From: Nocardioides daedukensis | GTDB lineage: Bacteria; Actinomycetota; Actinomycetes; Propionibacteriales; Nocardioidaceae | DNA length: 64,000 nt | NCBI RefSeq assembly: GCF_013408415.1 | Contig: NZ_JACCAA010000001.1 | Coordinates: forward strand, 1,860,001 to 1,924,000 | Direction of reading: 5' to 3' | Part shown: piece after piece, positions 8,465 through 58,740 of the stretch | Layout of the letters: each line of letters opens with the position of its first letter | How positions within the stretch are numbered: position 1 is the stretch's first letter | Made by a program: the position numbers and the translations under genes | Notes under the pieces: model-generated | Database searches by the model: none | What the model saw: the letters and a program-made list of their open reading frames with translations, nothing else | Told to the model about the DNA's origin: nothing

Positions 8465-9194
8465 CGATGCCGCCTTCTGTGTCCCGCGGCGCAGTGCCAC
8501 GCGTGTCCGGTCGTTCGGTGGTGCTCACAGCACGCTGCAGCATAGCGGCACCGACTTCGAGGATCAGAGCGACGACAGCCACCACGATCGCCCCGCCGAG
8601 CCCCTTGGGATAGTTGCCGTTGAAGAACCCGCTGGCGATCACGTTGCCCAACCCGGGGCCCGAGACCAGGGCCGCGATCGTGGCGGTCGCCCAGATCTGC
8701 ACCAACGAGAGCCGGACGCCGGCCGCCACCAGTGGCAGCGCGAGCGGGAGCTCGACCGAGCGGAACTTCTGCCAGCCGCTCATCCCCATCCCGTCGGCGG
8801 CGTCGCGCACGTCGGCGGGCACCTGGCTGACCCCGACGTGGGCATTGGTGACCAGCGGCGGCAGCCCGAACAGGGCCAGGGCGATCAGGGTGGCCAGCCC
8901 GGCGCGGCCATAGGGACCGAGGGTGTCGGTGCCGATCGGGTCGAACATCACCAGCAGCGCGAGTACGGCGAAGGTGGGCACGGCCCGGCCGACACCGGCG
9001 ACGTTGATCGCCAGGAACCCGGCCCGGCCGAGGTGTCCGAGCCACAGGGCCACCGGCAGGGCGATCACCATGGCGATGCCGAGGGCGGTGAAGGTGAGCA
9101 GCAGCTGCTGGACCAGCAGGTGCCACAGGCCTTCGGGGCCGCTCCAGTTCGCGCCGTCGGAGAGCCAGGCGAAGGTGTCGGCGAAGAGCTTCAT
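8391..9194 (-). CDS. osmoprotectant ABC transporter permease
   Basis: Integral membrane subunit with six or so hydrophobic segments and the BPD-type EAA loop (DAADGMGMSGWQKFRSVELP). The ATG at 9194 overlaps the stop of the preceding permease gene (ATGA), which decides the start; the earlier in-frame start would sit inside that gene. The last 40 residues are polar, acidic and threonine-rich, and are encoded where the gene overlaps the binding-protein gene. With the other permease it would form an OpuCB/OpuCD-like heterodimer. Confidence 0.88.
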   Translation of the reverse strand: MKLFADTFAWLSDGANWSGPEGLWHLLVQQLLLTFTALGIAMVIALPVALWLGHLGRAGFLAINVAGVGRAVPTFAVLALLVMFDPIGTDTLGPYGRAGLATLIALALFGLPPLVTNAHVGVSQVPADVRDAADGMGMSGWQKFRSVELPLALPLVAAGVRLSLVQIWATATIAALVSGPGLGNVIASGFFNGNYPKGLGGAIVVAVVALILEVGAAMLQRAVSTTERPDTRGTAPRDTEGGIDATTTDPDGGNTDALPGGGHGLRR

Positions 9195-9898
9195 CCGCGT
9201 GCTCCTGCCGTGCGGGTCCACGGAGTCGACAGGCGCTGGGCGAGCAGGAGCACCAGGTCGAGCAGCAGTGCCATCACCACGCAGATCAGGCTCACTGCCA
9301 GCACCTGCGCGCGGAAGTTAGAGTTCACCCCGTTGAGGAGCAGGATGCCCAGGCCGCCGTCATAGACGATCGCCCCGACGGTGGCCAGCGCGACCGTGGA
9401 GACGGTGGCGATGCGCAGGCCGGCGATGATCACCGGCAGCGCCATCGGCAGCTCGACGCGCCACAGCAGGCGGCCGCGGGAGTAGCCCATCCCGGTCGCG
9501 GACTCGATCACCTCGGGCGGAACCGCGCGCAGGCCCTCGATCATGTTGCGGACCAGGATGGTGAGCGAGTAGATCGCCAGGCCAACCACGACCGTGGTCC
9601 GCGACAGGCCGGTGAACGGCACGATCAGCGGGAAGAGTGCCAGCGACGGCAGCGTGTATAGACCGGTGCAGAAGCCGAGGATGAGCGACTCGAGGCGCTC
9701 GAACCTGCGCGCTGCCAGGGCCAGCGGCAGGGCGAGGGCCAGGCCCAGCAGGACTGCTGCGGCGGTGATCGTGAGGTGATCGAGGGTGGCGCTGATCAGC
9801 TCGTCGCCACGATCCTCGAAGTAGCCCATGCACATCCACTCGTTGACCGTCCGGCTGTAACAGGACGGCGCCGGGGCGGCCGCGTTCAGTAGGGTCAC
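9191..9898 (-). CDS. osmoprotectant ABC transporter permease
   Basis: Second OpuC-type membrane subunit, with the same EAA-type loop (SATGMGYSRGRLLWRVELP) and several transmembrane segments. The start is uncertain. A GTG at 9898 gives 235 residues and keeps an N-terminal SCYSRTVNEWMC segment like the cysteine-containing start common in relatives. ATG codons at 9835 and 9829 would remove it. With the GTG start only three bases separate it from the divergent ATPase gene, so at least one promoter must lie inside coding sequence. Confidence 0.85.
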   Translation of the reverse strand: MTLLNAAAPAPSCYSRTVNEWMCMGYFEDRGDELISATLDHLTITAAAVLLGLALALPLALAARRFERLESLILGFCTGLYTLPSLALFPLIVPFTGLSRTTVVVGLAIYSLTILVRNMIEGLRAVPPEVIESATGMGYSRGRLLWRVELPMALPVIIAGLRIATVSTVALATVGAIVYDGGLGILLLNGVNSNFRAQVLAVSLICVVMALLLDLVLLLAQRLSTPWTRTAGARG

Positions 9899-17084: not shown

Positions 17085-17636
17085 TCAGGAGTAGACGTGC
17101 GGAGCGAGCGTCCCGATGTCGCGCAGGTTGCGGTAGCGCTCCTTGAAGTCGAGCCCGTAGCCGACCACGAACTCGTTCGGGATGTCCCAGCCGACGTACT
17201 TCGGCTCGACGGGCATTGCCAGCGCCTCCGGCTTGCGCAGCAGGGTGGCAATCTCGACGCTGGCCGGGTTGCGGCTGCTCAGGTTGGAGATCAGCCAGCT
17301 CAGGGTCAGCCCGGTGTCGATGATCTCGTCGACCACGAGGACGTGGCGCCCGGAGATGTCGGTGTCGAGGTCCTTGAGAATCCGCACCACACCGCTGGAC
17401 TTGGTGCCCGAGCCGTAGGAGCTCACCGCCATCCAGTCCATCTCGACGTGACCGTGCAGCGAGCGGGCCAGATCGGCCATCACCATCACCGCACCGCGCA
17501 GGACTCCCACCATCAGGAGCTCCTTGCCGGCGTAGTCGGCCTCGATCTGGGTGGCCATTTCCTTCAGCTTTGCCTGGATCTGCTCCTCGGTGAAGAGGAT
17601 GTTGACCAGATCGCTCTCGACGTCGGAGGCATCCAT
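17085..17636 (-). CDS. hpt: hypoxanthine phosphoribosyltransferase
   Basis: Purine salvage enzyme making IMP or GMP from hypoxanthine or guanine and PRPP. The 183-residue protein contains the PRPP-binding motif VVDEIIDTGLT (101-111), the flexible-loop segment SSYGSGTKSSG and YVGWDIPNEFVVGYGLDF near the C-terminus, which contacts the purine. The start ATG is at 17636. It follows tilS after a 120-bp gap filled by a triple palindrome. Confidence 0.95.
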   Translation of the reverse strand: MDASDVESDLVNILFTEEQIQAKLKEMATQIEADYAGKELLMVGVLRGAVMVMADLARSLHGHVEMDWMAVSSYGSGTKSSGVVRILKDLDTDISGRHVLVVDEIIDTGLTLSWLISNLSSRNPASVEIATLLRKPEALAMPVEPKYVGWDIPNEFVVGYGLDFKERYRNLRDIGTLAPHVYS

Positions 17637-17666
17637 GGGCGCCAGCCTGCCACACCGGCTCGGACG

Positions 17667-17751
17667 GAGTCACCGGGTACCCGGTGACTCTGGTGCTTCC
17701 CGGGCAAGATCTTGCCCGGGAAGTGGTGGAGTCACCCGGTACCCGGTGACT
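17667..17751. repeat. triple palindrome (REP-like) between tilS and hpt
   Basis: Three palindromes in a row: a perfect 24-mer at 17667-17690 (core CACCGGGTACCCGGTG), a perfect 28-mer at 17696-17723 (core GGGCAAGATCTTGCCC) and a near copy of the first at 17731-17750 with one mispaired position. The outer two are nearly the same sequence. On the minus strand they follow the tilS stop at once and could act as terminator or RNA-stabilising hairpins before hpt. No transposase is near. Confidence 0.85.
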
Positions 17752-17756
17752 TCTGA

Positions 17757-18722
17757 CTACTCCTGGGACGAGCGGAACTCGATCACGCCGCCGGTGCGGA
17801 AGGCCCGCAGGTGGCCCGGGAGGTCGATCCACTTCTGGCCGTGCCAGTCGGTGACGAGGCGGTCGACGGCGATCACGTGCTCGTGGAAGAGCTCGGCGCC
17901 GGGAGCGCCCGCGGCCAGGGCGGCAAGGCGCAGGACGCGGGTACGGATCGGGGCCGGCAGAGCTGCCAGCGAGTCGACGGTGAGGGCGTCGGCAGCGGCG
18001 TACGCCGTGTGGGTGAGGTCGTCGAGCAGCTCCATGTCGGGGCGGAGCAGGTCGGCGGTGCGGGCGAGCGCGACGGCCACGCCCGGGCCGAGCTCGGTCT
18101 CGAGCACCGGCAGCACCTTGTGCCGCACCCGGACCCTGGTGAACTTCGGGTCCTCGTTGTGCGGGTCCGCCCACACGCTCAGCCCTTCGGCCTCGCAGGA
18201 CTCCTTCGTGTCTGCGCGCGAGACGTCGAGCAGCGGTCGACGGAAGCGATCGAACTCGCGGCGCATCCCGGCCACGGCCCGGCCGCCGGATCCGCGCGCC
18301 AGACCGAGCAGCACGGTCTCGGCCTGGTCGTCACGGGTGTGGCCCAGGAGCACGAGCGCGGCACCGAAGTGATCGGCCATCTGCTCCAGCACCGCATAGC
18401 GGGCCTCGCGTGCCGCTGCCTCGGGTCCGCCGGCACCGTCCACGGACACCCGCGCGGAGACGGTCTCGTCGCAGCCCATCGCCGCCATCTGCGTGACAAG
18501 TGATGAGGCGCGCGTGTCCGATCCGTCCTGGAGCCCGTGGTCCACGGTCGCGCCGATCACCCGCAGGGCCATCCGCCGTCCCTCGAAGATCGTCGCGGCG
18601 AGCAACGCCAACGAGTCGGCTCCGCCTGAGCAGGCCACCACGACCGCCTCGCCGGGCGCGAGGGGGGCGAGCACTCGGCGTACCCCGATCCGCACCGCGG
18701 CCGTGGCCGGGTGGAGGGTCAT
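17757..18722 (-). CDS. tilS: tRNA(Ile)-lysidine synthetase
   Basis: Converts the wobble cytidine of tRNA-Ile(CAU) to lysidine, needed to read AUA. The 321-residue protein has the PP-loop SGGADS at 32-37, ATVDHGLQ near 57, LLGHTRDDQAETVLLGLARGSG (family signature, in part) and RRPLLDVSR. It is the short actinobacterial form, with only part of the C-terminal TilS domain. It overlaps the metalloprotease gene by four bases; hpt and ftsH follow, a common actinobacterial order. Confidence 0.95.
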   Translation of the reverse strand: MTLHPATAAVRIGVRRVLAPLAPGEAVVVACSGGADSLALLAATIFEGRRMALRVIGATVDHGLQDGSDTRASSLVTQMAAMGCDETVSARVSVDGAGGPEAAAREARYAVLEQMADHFGAALVLLGHTRDDQAETVLLGLARGSGGRAVAGMRREFDRFRRPLLDVSRADTKESCEAEGLSVWADPHNEDPKFTRVRVRHKVLPVLETELGPGVAVALARTADLLRPDMELLDDLTHTAYAAADALTVDSLAALPAPIRTRVLRLAALAAGAPGAELFHEHVIAVDRLVTDWHGQKWIDLPGHLRAFRTGGVIEFRSSQE

Positions 18723-19781: not shown

Positions 19782-19846
19782 CGTCGACCCGTCGCTTGTT
19801 GACGTTCCACCCGCCGGCCGAGCGTCAACAACTGCCGGGTCGGCGA
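19782..19846. repeat. dispersed 23-bp repeat, locus A: inverted pair after dacB
   Basis: A reverse copy at 19782-19804 (CGTCGACCCGTCGCTTGTTG plus ACG, four changes) and a forward copy at 19822-19846 (GTCAACAAC then TGCCGGGTCGGCGA) face each other across 17 bp. They fold into a stem with a 9-bp inner part (TTGTTGACG/CGTCAACAA) and a 7-bp outer part (CGACCCG/CGGGTCG). The forward copy ends 4 bp from the dacB stop. It is the same family as loci at 43770 and 58540. Confidence 0.85.
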
Positions 19847-43704: not shown

Positions 43705-43769
43705 GTGCTGTCCGGCCCGCCGGACAACCCGGGGAAGTATACGGTCCCGGCTGCACAGCGTCGAAATCA

Positions 43770-43855
43770 CGTCGACCCGGCAGTTGTTGACGCGAGATGG
43801 TGTCAACAACTGCCGGGTCGGCGGGATCGAGTGTCAGCAAGTGCCGGGTCGGCGA
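43770..43855. repeat. dispersed 23-bp repeat, locus B: one reverse and two forward copies
   Basis: Reverse copy 43770-43793 (CGACCCGGCAGTTGTTGACG core) and forward copies 43800-43824 and 43831-43855, whose GTCAAC/GTCAGC cores are exactly 31 bp apart. The reverse and first forward copies form a hairpin. The last copy ends 9 bp from the stop of the 66-residue zinc-protein gene. The region 43705-43864 holds nothing else I can name. Confidence 0.87.
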
Positions 43856-43864
43856 GATGCGGGG

Positions 43865-44065
43865 TCAGGCAGACGCGGACGCGGACGCGGTGGCGGTGAC
43901 GGTCGGGGCCTGGGCGTTCTTCATGCCCTCGTGCCACAGCTGCTCCGCGCCGCACCAGCAGGTGTAGGTCATCGCGACGACGCCGTCGACCTTGGCCATG
44001 CCGGTGACCTGGCTCGGGAAGATCAGCATCTTCTTGTCGCAGTGCGTGCAGTGGTTGACGAACAT
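43865..44065 (-). CDS. small zinc-ribbon-like protein
   Basis: A 66-residue protein with CTHC near residue 6-9 and CWC near 36-38, enough cysteines (with a nearby histidine) to hold one zinc in a ribbon. The C-terminus is a low-complexity Thr/Ala/Ser run (TATASASASA). A strong GGAGG ribosome site precedes the ATG, so the gene is probably expressed. Function unknown; it diverges from the LysR gene. Confidence 0.68.
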   Translation of the reverse strand: MFVNHCTHCDKKMLIFPSQVTGMAKVDGVVAMTYTCWCGAEQLWHEGMKNAQAPTVTATASASASA

Positions 44066-58512: not shown

Positions 58513-58528
58513 TGTGATCCGCGCCACA
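58513..58528. promoter_or_regulatory. CRP-like site upstream of hppA (distal)
   Basis: TGTGATCCGCGCCACA, half-sites TGTGA and CCACA with the same 6-bp spacing, 71 bp upstream of the hppA ATG. It is weaker than the proximal site. Confidence 0.38.
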
Positions 58529-58539
58529 CCAATCCCCCA

Positions 58540-58740
58540 CGCCGACCCGGCAGTTGTTGACGCTGCACCACGCCGGATCACGCCGAGTCGGCAGTTGTTG
58601 ACGCCCCCACCTCGCCGGATCACGACGAGTCGGCAGTTGTTGACGCTGCGAAGGCGTCAACAAGTGCCGGGTCGACGAAACGCGCGGTCAACAAGTGCCG
58701 GGTCGGCGAAGCATCCGGTCAACAGCTGCCGGGTCGGCGA
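58540..58740. repeat. dispersed 23-bp repeat, locus C: array of three reverse and three forward copies
   Basis: Reverse copies at 58540-58563, 58581-58604 and 58623-58646; forward copies at 58654-58678, 58685-58709 and 58715-58740. Cores are 41 and 42 bp apart in the reverse set and 31 and 31 bp apart in the forward set. The two sets meet at 58646/58654 and form a hairpin with 18 of 21 positions paired (loop TGCGAAG). The last copy ends 7 bp after (minus strand) the STAS stop. The 305-bp gap 58443-58747 contains this array and the hppA promoter only. Confidence 0.9.

Follow-up and report, generated by a model that had tools for sequence, protein, structure and literature searches.

The three palindromes between tilS and hpt of Nocardioides daedukensis are almost certainly one member of a dispersed repeat family, and that family was very probably mobile in the past. 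We further propose, as a reading whose chances we hold to be even, that the block is a solo A-B-A copy of a genus-wide mobile family, a system resembling REP/RAYT but with a Vsr-type nuclease as its driver. The family of repeats itself is firm; the link to the nuclease is a strong anatomical lead. The block was analyzed within a window (the whole stretch of 64,000 nucleotides), within the host genome (G000; 3.81 Mb, a single contig), and in other genomes, which are designated by G numbers and their loci by L numbers. The features of the block and its neighbors are as follows.

17085-17636, minus strand: hpt (hypoxanthine phosphoribosyltransferase; NCBIfam TIGR01203), downstream of the block
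17667-17690, no strand: A module, perfect 24-bp palindrome GAGTCACCGGGTACCCGGTGACTC, from the palindrome scan and genome matches
17696-17723, no strand: B module, perfect 28-bp palindrome CTTCCCGGGCAAGATCTTGCCCGGGAAG, with its centre 31 bp from each A centre
17728-17751, no strand: second A module, one mismatch relative to the first A, 62-bp pitch
17667-17751, no strand: whole A-B-A element, 84-85 bp, matched on both strands by covariance model R1
17757-18722, minus strand: tilS (tRNA lysidine synthetase; NCBIfam TIGR02432), upstream of the block

An earlier note on this DNA had described two perfect palindromes of 24 and 28 bp, along with a near copy of the first, in this interval, and the scan bore this out; the outer two palindromes share sequence, as the note had said, and differ by the single mismatch listed above. 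A and B were the sole perfect palindromes of at least 20 bp within the 64-kb window. The note's view that palindromes of this length are uncommon by chance agreed with 100 first-order Markov simulations, which gave 0.29 palindromes of ≥20 bp and 0.01 of ≥24 bp per window. A-like sequences with up to 3 mismatches occurred twice in the window, versus an expected 0.01. Covariance model R1 matched the block at 17668-17744 on the plus strand (76.4 bits) and at 17675-17751 on the minus strand (69.6 bits). The element lies 5 bp away from the tilS stop codon and is able to fold as one long hairpin (z of -11.8 as DNA and -9.3 as RNA). A search for intrinsic terminators (a GC hairpin followed by a T-tract) found 0 sites in 17560-17860, and an Rfam 15 scan gave no match at the gathering threshold and 14 sub-threshold matches, mostly to generic hairpin (miRNA) families.

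Counting A and B across the genome, the check that the note had proposed, gave 21 places for GTCACCGGGTACCCGGTGAC with up to 2 mismatches and 15 places for the B palindrome with up to 1 mismatch; the reversed-pattern control was 0 in both cases. An A unit flanked each of the 15 B palindromes, on one side or both, at a distance of exactly 31 bp; the genome contained one solo A in addition. Seven copies, including the tilS-hpt block, had the layout A-B-A (two of the seven with a hybrid third module), and eight had the layout A-B-half-B, where half-B is the repeated right arm of B (ACTTGCCCGGGAAGT). The centres of A, B, and A were rigidly spaced at 31 bp, giving a pitch of 62 bp between A units. 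Three of the full copies (L026, L029, and L030; C1 near 571804, 1827350, and 2612498) were adjoined by decayed half-A units at a pitch of ~22-23 or 39 bp, not 31. The note had also held the block to be different from a 23-bp family of repeats (GTCAACAASTGCCGGGTCGGCG; window positions 19824-19846, 43755-43867, and 58525-58740). This is right by sequence, though the 31-bp pitch is common to both: among the 162 unit matches of the 23-bp family in G000 (≤2 mismatches), direct copies were often 31 bp apart, the same spacing as that of A and B, and head-to-head inverted copies were common. The 23-bp family may be a related class of repeat.

The tilS-hpt junction was also compared among relatives. 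tilS was read in 29, hpt was also found in 27 of these, and 22 of the 27 belonged to the same genus; in those 22, eleven spacers measured 4-18 bp, five measured 56-97 bp, and six were at least 823 bp long. The block was absent from the spacers of the relatives, which were often just 4-18 bp long. The note had named a genome lacking other copies, together with a short simple spacer in relatives, as grounds for abandoning its reading, and with 15 full copies in the genome that is not the situation here. G024 has its own palindrome in this spacer, and G003 has an unrelated gene and a palindrome near hpt. In G005 (L084) and G007 (L086), the spacer holds a gene of the AbiEi-Vsr type described below, bracketed by another palindrome family (ACTTCCACTCG..CGAGTGGAAGT); solo copies of that family also lie at the G005 L295 locus (L358 near 8813-9234).

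Across the genus, the family was found in distinct sequence dialects. The pattern AGTCACC(N8)GGTGACT was present in 24 of 196 same-genus genomes, with up to 23 copies, and its reversed control gave 0 in every same-genus genome but one. The central 8 bp of this dialect vary by genome and are largely self-complementary (GGGTACCC, GGATATCC, GGTTAACC, GGTCGACC, and others). Genomes that carry this dialect again show the 62-bp pitch. A second dialect, WYCCCCGG(N4)CCGGGGRW, was counted in five genomes, which had 22, 13, 3, 3, and 0 copies against 0 for the controls, and here, too, B-like hairpins adjoin A. In several genomes (L200, L203, L176, and L383), the place of B beside A is taken by yet another type of hairpin (GATCGTGGAGCTC...GAGCTCCACGATC and its variants). 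A covariance model built from 67 elements of 13 genomes found the family in at least 45 of 59 same-genus genomes versus at least 1 of 37 other-genus genomes of the order (Fisher 1e-13); these counts are lower bounds, as 49 candidates per genome were scored, and G021, with 22 copies by the WYCCCCGG pattern, was missed by this search. Sixty loci were fetched from the matches of the model, among the strongest; nearly all strong matches in the 79 fetched loci spanned 77 of 77 model positions with length unchanged. Copy number per genome ranged from none to dozens. Among 138 elements of 27 genomes, mean identity over the first 62 bases was 0.87 within genomes versus 0.61 between genomes, and 93 of 134 elements had their nearest neighbor within their own genome. 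In contigs of 84,980 species, the exact A pattern was found in nine stretches, the ninth being a Streptomyces contig; of the eight stretches inspected, the setting was repeat-like only in Nocardioides potassii, and none held the B module. Plasmids and phages gave no DNA match to the repeat, and viral contigs gave one A-like match without an adjoining B and no match to B.

Judging from the pattern of substitutions, the palindromes are kept as DNA symmetry and not as RNA pairing. In an ungapped alignment, both sides had changed in 23 of 31 pairs, and two-sided changes numbered 309 cells versus 116 ± 9 when shuffled and 54-117 with the partners slid; this alignment leans towards pairing, as rows were kept at a B complementarity of ≥0.6 (80 of 190 row-orientations, 67 unique elements). 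A pitch control made without that filter found 73 of 86 A sites to be ≥60% complementary at the 31-bp pitch versus 0-4 at 15 other pitches, and these 86 sites, which include a few repeats of one locus, answer the filter bias in part. On the transcribed strand in tandem contexts, the mismatches among 1,674 pairs were G.U in 56 cases, A.C in 63, and other in 107. Since RNA hairpins should favor G.U over A.C, it is on DNA that the constraint or mutational process acts. Perfect palindromes may also arise in part, without selection, from template switching between arms, which passages of PMC8794818 describe as a route to making and repairing perfect stems.

The genomic placement of the elements bears on a different explanation, namely, that they serve as RNA structures at 3' ends (as bidirectional terminators or to stabilize mRNA) that are selected and are homogenized by gene conversion, with mobility being incidental. 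According to a custom codon-usage gene caller, 68 of the 138 elements lie in convergent gaps, 54 in tandem contexts, 11 in divergent gaps, and 5 inside called genes (one of these calls, that at G030 L061, is a weak ORF), whereas convergent gaps account for 536 of the 5,986 bp of intergenic DNA in the window. A median of 14 bp separates an element from the nearest stop codon (122 elements with one facing), a stop codon lies within 40 bp of 105 of the 133 non-genic elements, and for 38 of the 54 elements in tandem contexts transcription reaches the A end first. The abundance in convergent gaps, the proximity to stop codons, and the very stable RNA fold of the block all speak for a role at RNA 3' ends. 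We nevertheless consider this explanation unlikely, because the tandem copies show no preference for G.U over A.C, the tilS-hpt block has no T-tract terminator, G000 has just ~15 copies, elements occur in divergent gaps and within called genes, and an element of G012 is missing at the orthologous site of the close species G022. Survival of promoter-sparing insertions or insertion at natural 3' ends would each explain the 3'-end placement. The earlier note had suggested that the block was another mobile repeat or an RNA 3'-end stabilizer. Its first suggestion is upheld by the 15 dispersed full copies, the short element-free spacers, the in-frame copies described below, and presence/absence differences between close species; the second holds by location only, and the mismatch counts, the missing T-tract, and the copies in genes and divergent gaps tell against anything beyond that.

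The differences between close species were as follows. In G173 and G108, which are ~91% identical at shared loci, one site differs by exactly one 62-bp A-B unit. The G012 element absent at the orthologous G022 site has flanks that are 91 to 93% identical, and another site shared by G012 and G022 carries different element types in the two species. No target-site duplication was seen at the G173/G108 and G012/G022 junctions, which are too diverged or ambiguous to define one, and no transposition intermediate was seen. G022 also has ~297 bp (L305:804-1100), including a short reading frame that we take to be glutaredoxin-like, with no counterpart in its close relative G012 (L383:2506-2507).

Some copies of the family bracket a gene. 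At G000 L027, G012 L295, G024 L240, and G019 L355, a gene of ~320 codons is flanked by inverted A-B-half-B copies; G019 L355 is orthologous to G012 L295, so that these four gene-bearing loci include three independent ones. In all four units, half-B points inwards to the gene and the A end lies on the outside; the units are 1,187 to 1,256 bp long with two ends that are 73 to 94% identical. Related genes with long inverted repeats were found at a second locus, presumably next to miaB, in G053 (L200), G149 (L203), G022 (L372), and G019 (L117). Long inverted repeats on one or both sides also accompany the tilS-hpt genes of G005 and G007 and the genes at G053 L196 and G001 L364. The G022 gene (L372:4234-5313) lies between GTGCGGCCC...GGGCCGCAC hairpins that match each other and differ in type from both A and B. 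An automatic test was applied to 13 nuclease genes, which represent ~7 independent loci and were mostly found through an element. Nine of the 13 had inverted repeats on both sides, versus 8 of 287 size-matched other genes; a 10-mer was common to the two flanking repeats for 5 of the 13 and for none of the 287. The control genes came from the window and 31 fetched regions, leaving out the nuclease regions L354, L355, L360, L364, and L372, as well as L357. Counted per independent locus, 5 of 7 passed the two-sided test (p = 1.5e-6), and of the four nuclease genes found without an element query (L084, L086, L364, and L372), 2 passed, versus 8 of 287 controls (p = 0.006). The genes at G053 L196 and G019 L117 had a recognizable repeat on one side only, and at G001 L364 neither side passed, although a long hairpin is visible 5' of the gene. 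Among the element loci, just 4 of 131 contained a nuclease gene. G012, G022, and G019 all carry the unit at the L295 locus; G017 and G024 have neither nuclease gene nor palindrome there, and G007 and G005 have no nuclease gene and only other palindromes. The 3' end of rpoC in G003 was considered as an empty site for the G000 unit; it holds no unit, but synteny was not found on the other side, and it was not counted.

The bracketed gene likely encodes a DNA-cutting enzyme in which an AbiEi-like part is joined to a Vsr/I-Bth0305I domain, as predicted from profile matches and a structural model. Pfam AbiEi_4 (cut-off, 25) scored 33.5 bits in G053 L200, 24.6 bits in G000 L027, just below the cut-off, and 17.1 bits in G053 L196, also below it; there was no match in G012 L295. 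The AlphaFold model of the G000 protein (pLDDT 86.6, pTM 0.82; from a thin alignment of 9 sequences) matched the AbiEi antitoxin 6y8q (Z 12.1) and Rv2827c 1zel (Z 9.8) over residues 1-197, and residues 202-314 matched I-Bth0305I 3r3p (Z 11.9, rmsd 2.4 over 97 residues) and Vsr 1cw0 (Z 10.2, rmsd 3.2 over 106). The acidic residues E205, D237, E248, and D250, which may belong to an active site, were invariant in all 9 aligned proteins. The protein gave two weak plasmid matches and no match to phages. AbiEi and Rv2827c are autoregulators that recognize inverted repeats within the promoters of their own genes (passages of PMC7319586), and the I-Bth0305I family dimerizes on a target of nearly 60 bp (passages of PMC3943268). 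Because both properties fit, we predict that the protein would read the 62-bp palindromic unit.

The same background supports two readings in which the repeats are binding sites. Since AbiEi-type proteins autoregulate via inverted repeats, according to those passages of PMC7319586, the repeats at AbiEi-Vsr genes may be operators. More broadly, the whole family could be a binding-site array for a dimeric DNA-binding protein (as an operator or in nucleoid or chromosome organization), with the 31-bp pitch placing sites on one helix face. The loop-free perfect palindromes, their rigid 31/62-bp pitch, symmetry at the DNA and not the RNA level, and the binding of AbiEi-family proteins to inverted repeats in their own promoters (PMC7319586, in the passages cited) are consistent with such an array. 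We regard it as very unlikely, however, because the sequence is replaced wholesale between species with symmetry retained, the copies lie mostly at 3' ends and not at promoters, with some inside genes, and copy number runs from none to dozens.

A third alternative is that these are ordinary non-autonomous elements of the REP/MITE type that owe their movement to a conventional transposase, either supplied in trans or since lost, with the nuclease genes as passengers or as occupants of a hot spot. Short, dispersed, mostly extragenic palindromes with inverted doublets and lineage-specific sequence are shared with the REP/BIME/REPIN and RAYT systems, in which small inverted dispersed palindromes are typical (passages of PMC3116915 and PMC3733652), and CGTC REPs are reported without a dedicated transposase (passages of PMC3733652). 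The longer gene-bearing version bracketed by A-B repeats likewise recalls the REPtron of REP/RAYT systems. Such an origin nonetheless seems improbable to us. Y1_Tnp (RAYT; PF01797), which marks GTAG-type REPs, had 0 matches in G000 in a search that was positive in 5 of 14 control genomes; no IS with the same ends was seen, the half-motif occurring only within or beside element copies; neither GTAG nor CGTC is found in 17667-17751, the G000 copies ending in AGTCACC or AAGT; and one gene family is bracketed at several loci. The Nocardioides unit also differs from REP/RAYT in its fixed length of 77-84 bp, its three modules, and the AbiEi-Vsr type of the bracketed gene. A MITE would be expected to share terminal inverted repeats with an autonomous element; gene-bearing units with matching inverted ends exist, but their gene is nuclease-like and not a known transposase.

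The predicted fold of the protein has counterparts in two other systems. Its C-terminal fold resembles those of the Vsr-like/EDxHD homing endonucleases such as I-Bth0305I, whose ~60-bp target (per the passages of PMC3943268 cited above) is near in size to the 62-bp A-B unit; unlike I-Bth0305I, the putative Nocardioides nuclease is joined to an AbiEi-like N part, and its gene is free-standing between palindromic repeats, not in an intron or intein. The N-terminal two thirds of the fold resemble AbiEi and Rv2827c of the AbiE type IV toxin-antitoxin systems, a family that binds inverted repeats (PMC7319586, same passages). It departs from AbiE antitoxins in having a nuclease-like domain, and no AbiEii-type toxin gene lies beside the nuclease gene at the two loci checked; one has as neighbors a gene for RNA polymerase (Rpb1 domain 5) and an unassigned ORF of 165 amino acids, and the other has PAP2 and NlpC/P60 genes. 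Titles and opening lines of abstracts, with few subscription journals among them, held no description of the repeat family in Nocardioides and none of an AbiEi-Vsr protein linked to palindromic repeats.

We therefore return to the nuclease as the mover of the repeats, a reading to which we assign a little under an even chance. The full element would be a ~1.2-kb unit consisting of A-B-half-B, the AbiEi-Vsr gene, and half-B-B-A. Its AbiEi-like winged helix would recognize the inverted repeats, its Vsr-like domain would cut or nick DNA, and break repair would copy the element into new sites and homogenize copies within a genome. Solo A-B-half-B copies would be single ends of the full unit; the A-B-A form seen between tilS and hpt could come from deletion between the two B palindromes of the full unit, and a solo A could come from recombination between two A modules, as at the G173/G108 site. 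Template switching between arms may help keep the palindromes perfect, and insertions would survive best just downstream of stop codons. That the family represents a new class of mobile DNA, in which palindromic repeats are spread by an AbiEi-Vsr homing-type nuclease and not by a transposase, with nuclease and dialects coevolving by species, is a more tentative proposal. Palindromic repeats that lack a known transposase include the CGTC REPs of PMC3733652 (in the passages cited); in Nocardioides, the repeats enclose a candidate mover. If the nuclease does move them, it would pair a nuclease with palindromic DNA in a new way and amount to homing directed at intergenic repeats. Many Nocardioides genomes have been sequenced, and the species-specific divergence among them is strong.

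The family also offers a natural experiment on concerted evolution, as a single in-frame site in hutF (formimidoylglutamate deiminase) carries each species' own dialect and the symmetry of the palindromes persists without signs of RNA pairing rules. In G000, an 84-bp A-B-A copy adds 28 in-frame codons near the N terminus of hutF, and the protein with the insert still scores 587.8 bits versus a cut-off of 362. Among 27 genomes in which this loop was readable, G009 and G024 have elements of their own dialects, G010 and G020 have perfect palindromes, and G003 has a remnant. The elements of G000, G009, and G024 are 0.94, 0.85, and 0.80 identical, respectively, to other copies of their own genomes and 0.52-0.65 identical to one another. 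Either the dialect of each species has overwritten an old insertion or the site has been targeted repeatedly. Asked whether the insertions go back to one ancestral event, a tree of 27 rows (4 labeled, with G010 and G020 outside the label set) gave three unclustered changes, and 83 of 500 shuffles were as low. A second in-frame insertion lies in a carboxyl-transferase gene of G030. Rickettsia palindromic elements (RPE) insert in frame inside protein genes, and the hutF and carboxyl-transferase insertions resemble them in this respect. RPE, which are named in passages of PMC3733652, differ in sequence and phylum, and in-gene copies are a small minority of the Nocardioides family (5 of 138 as called).
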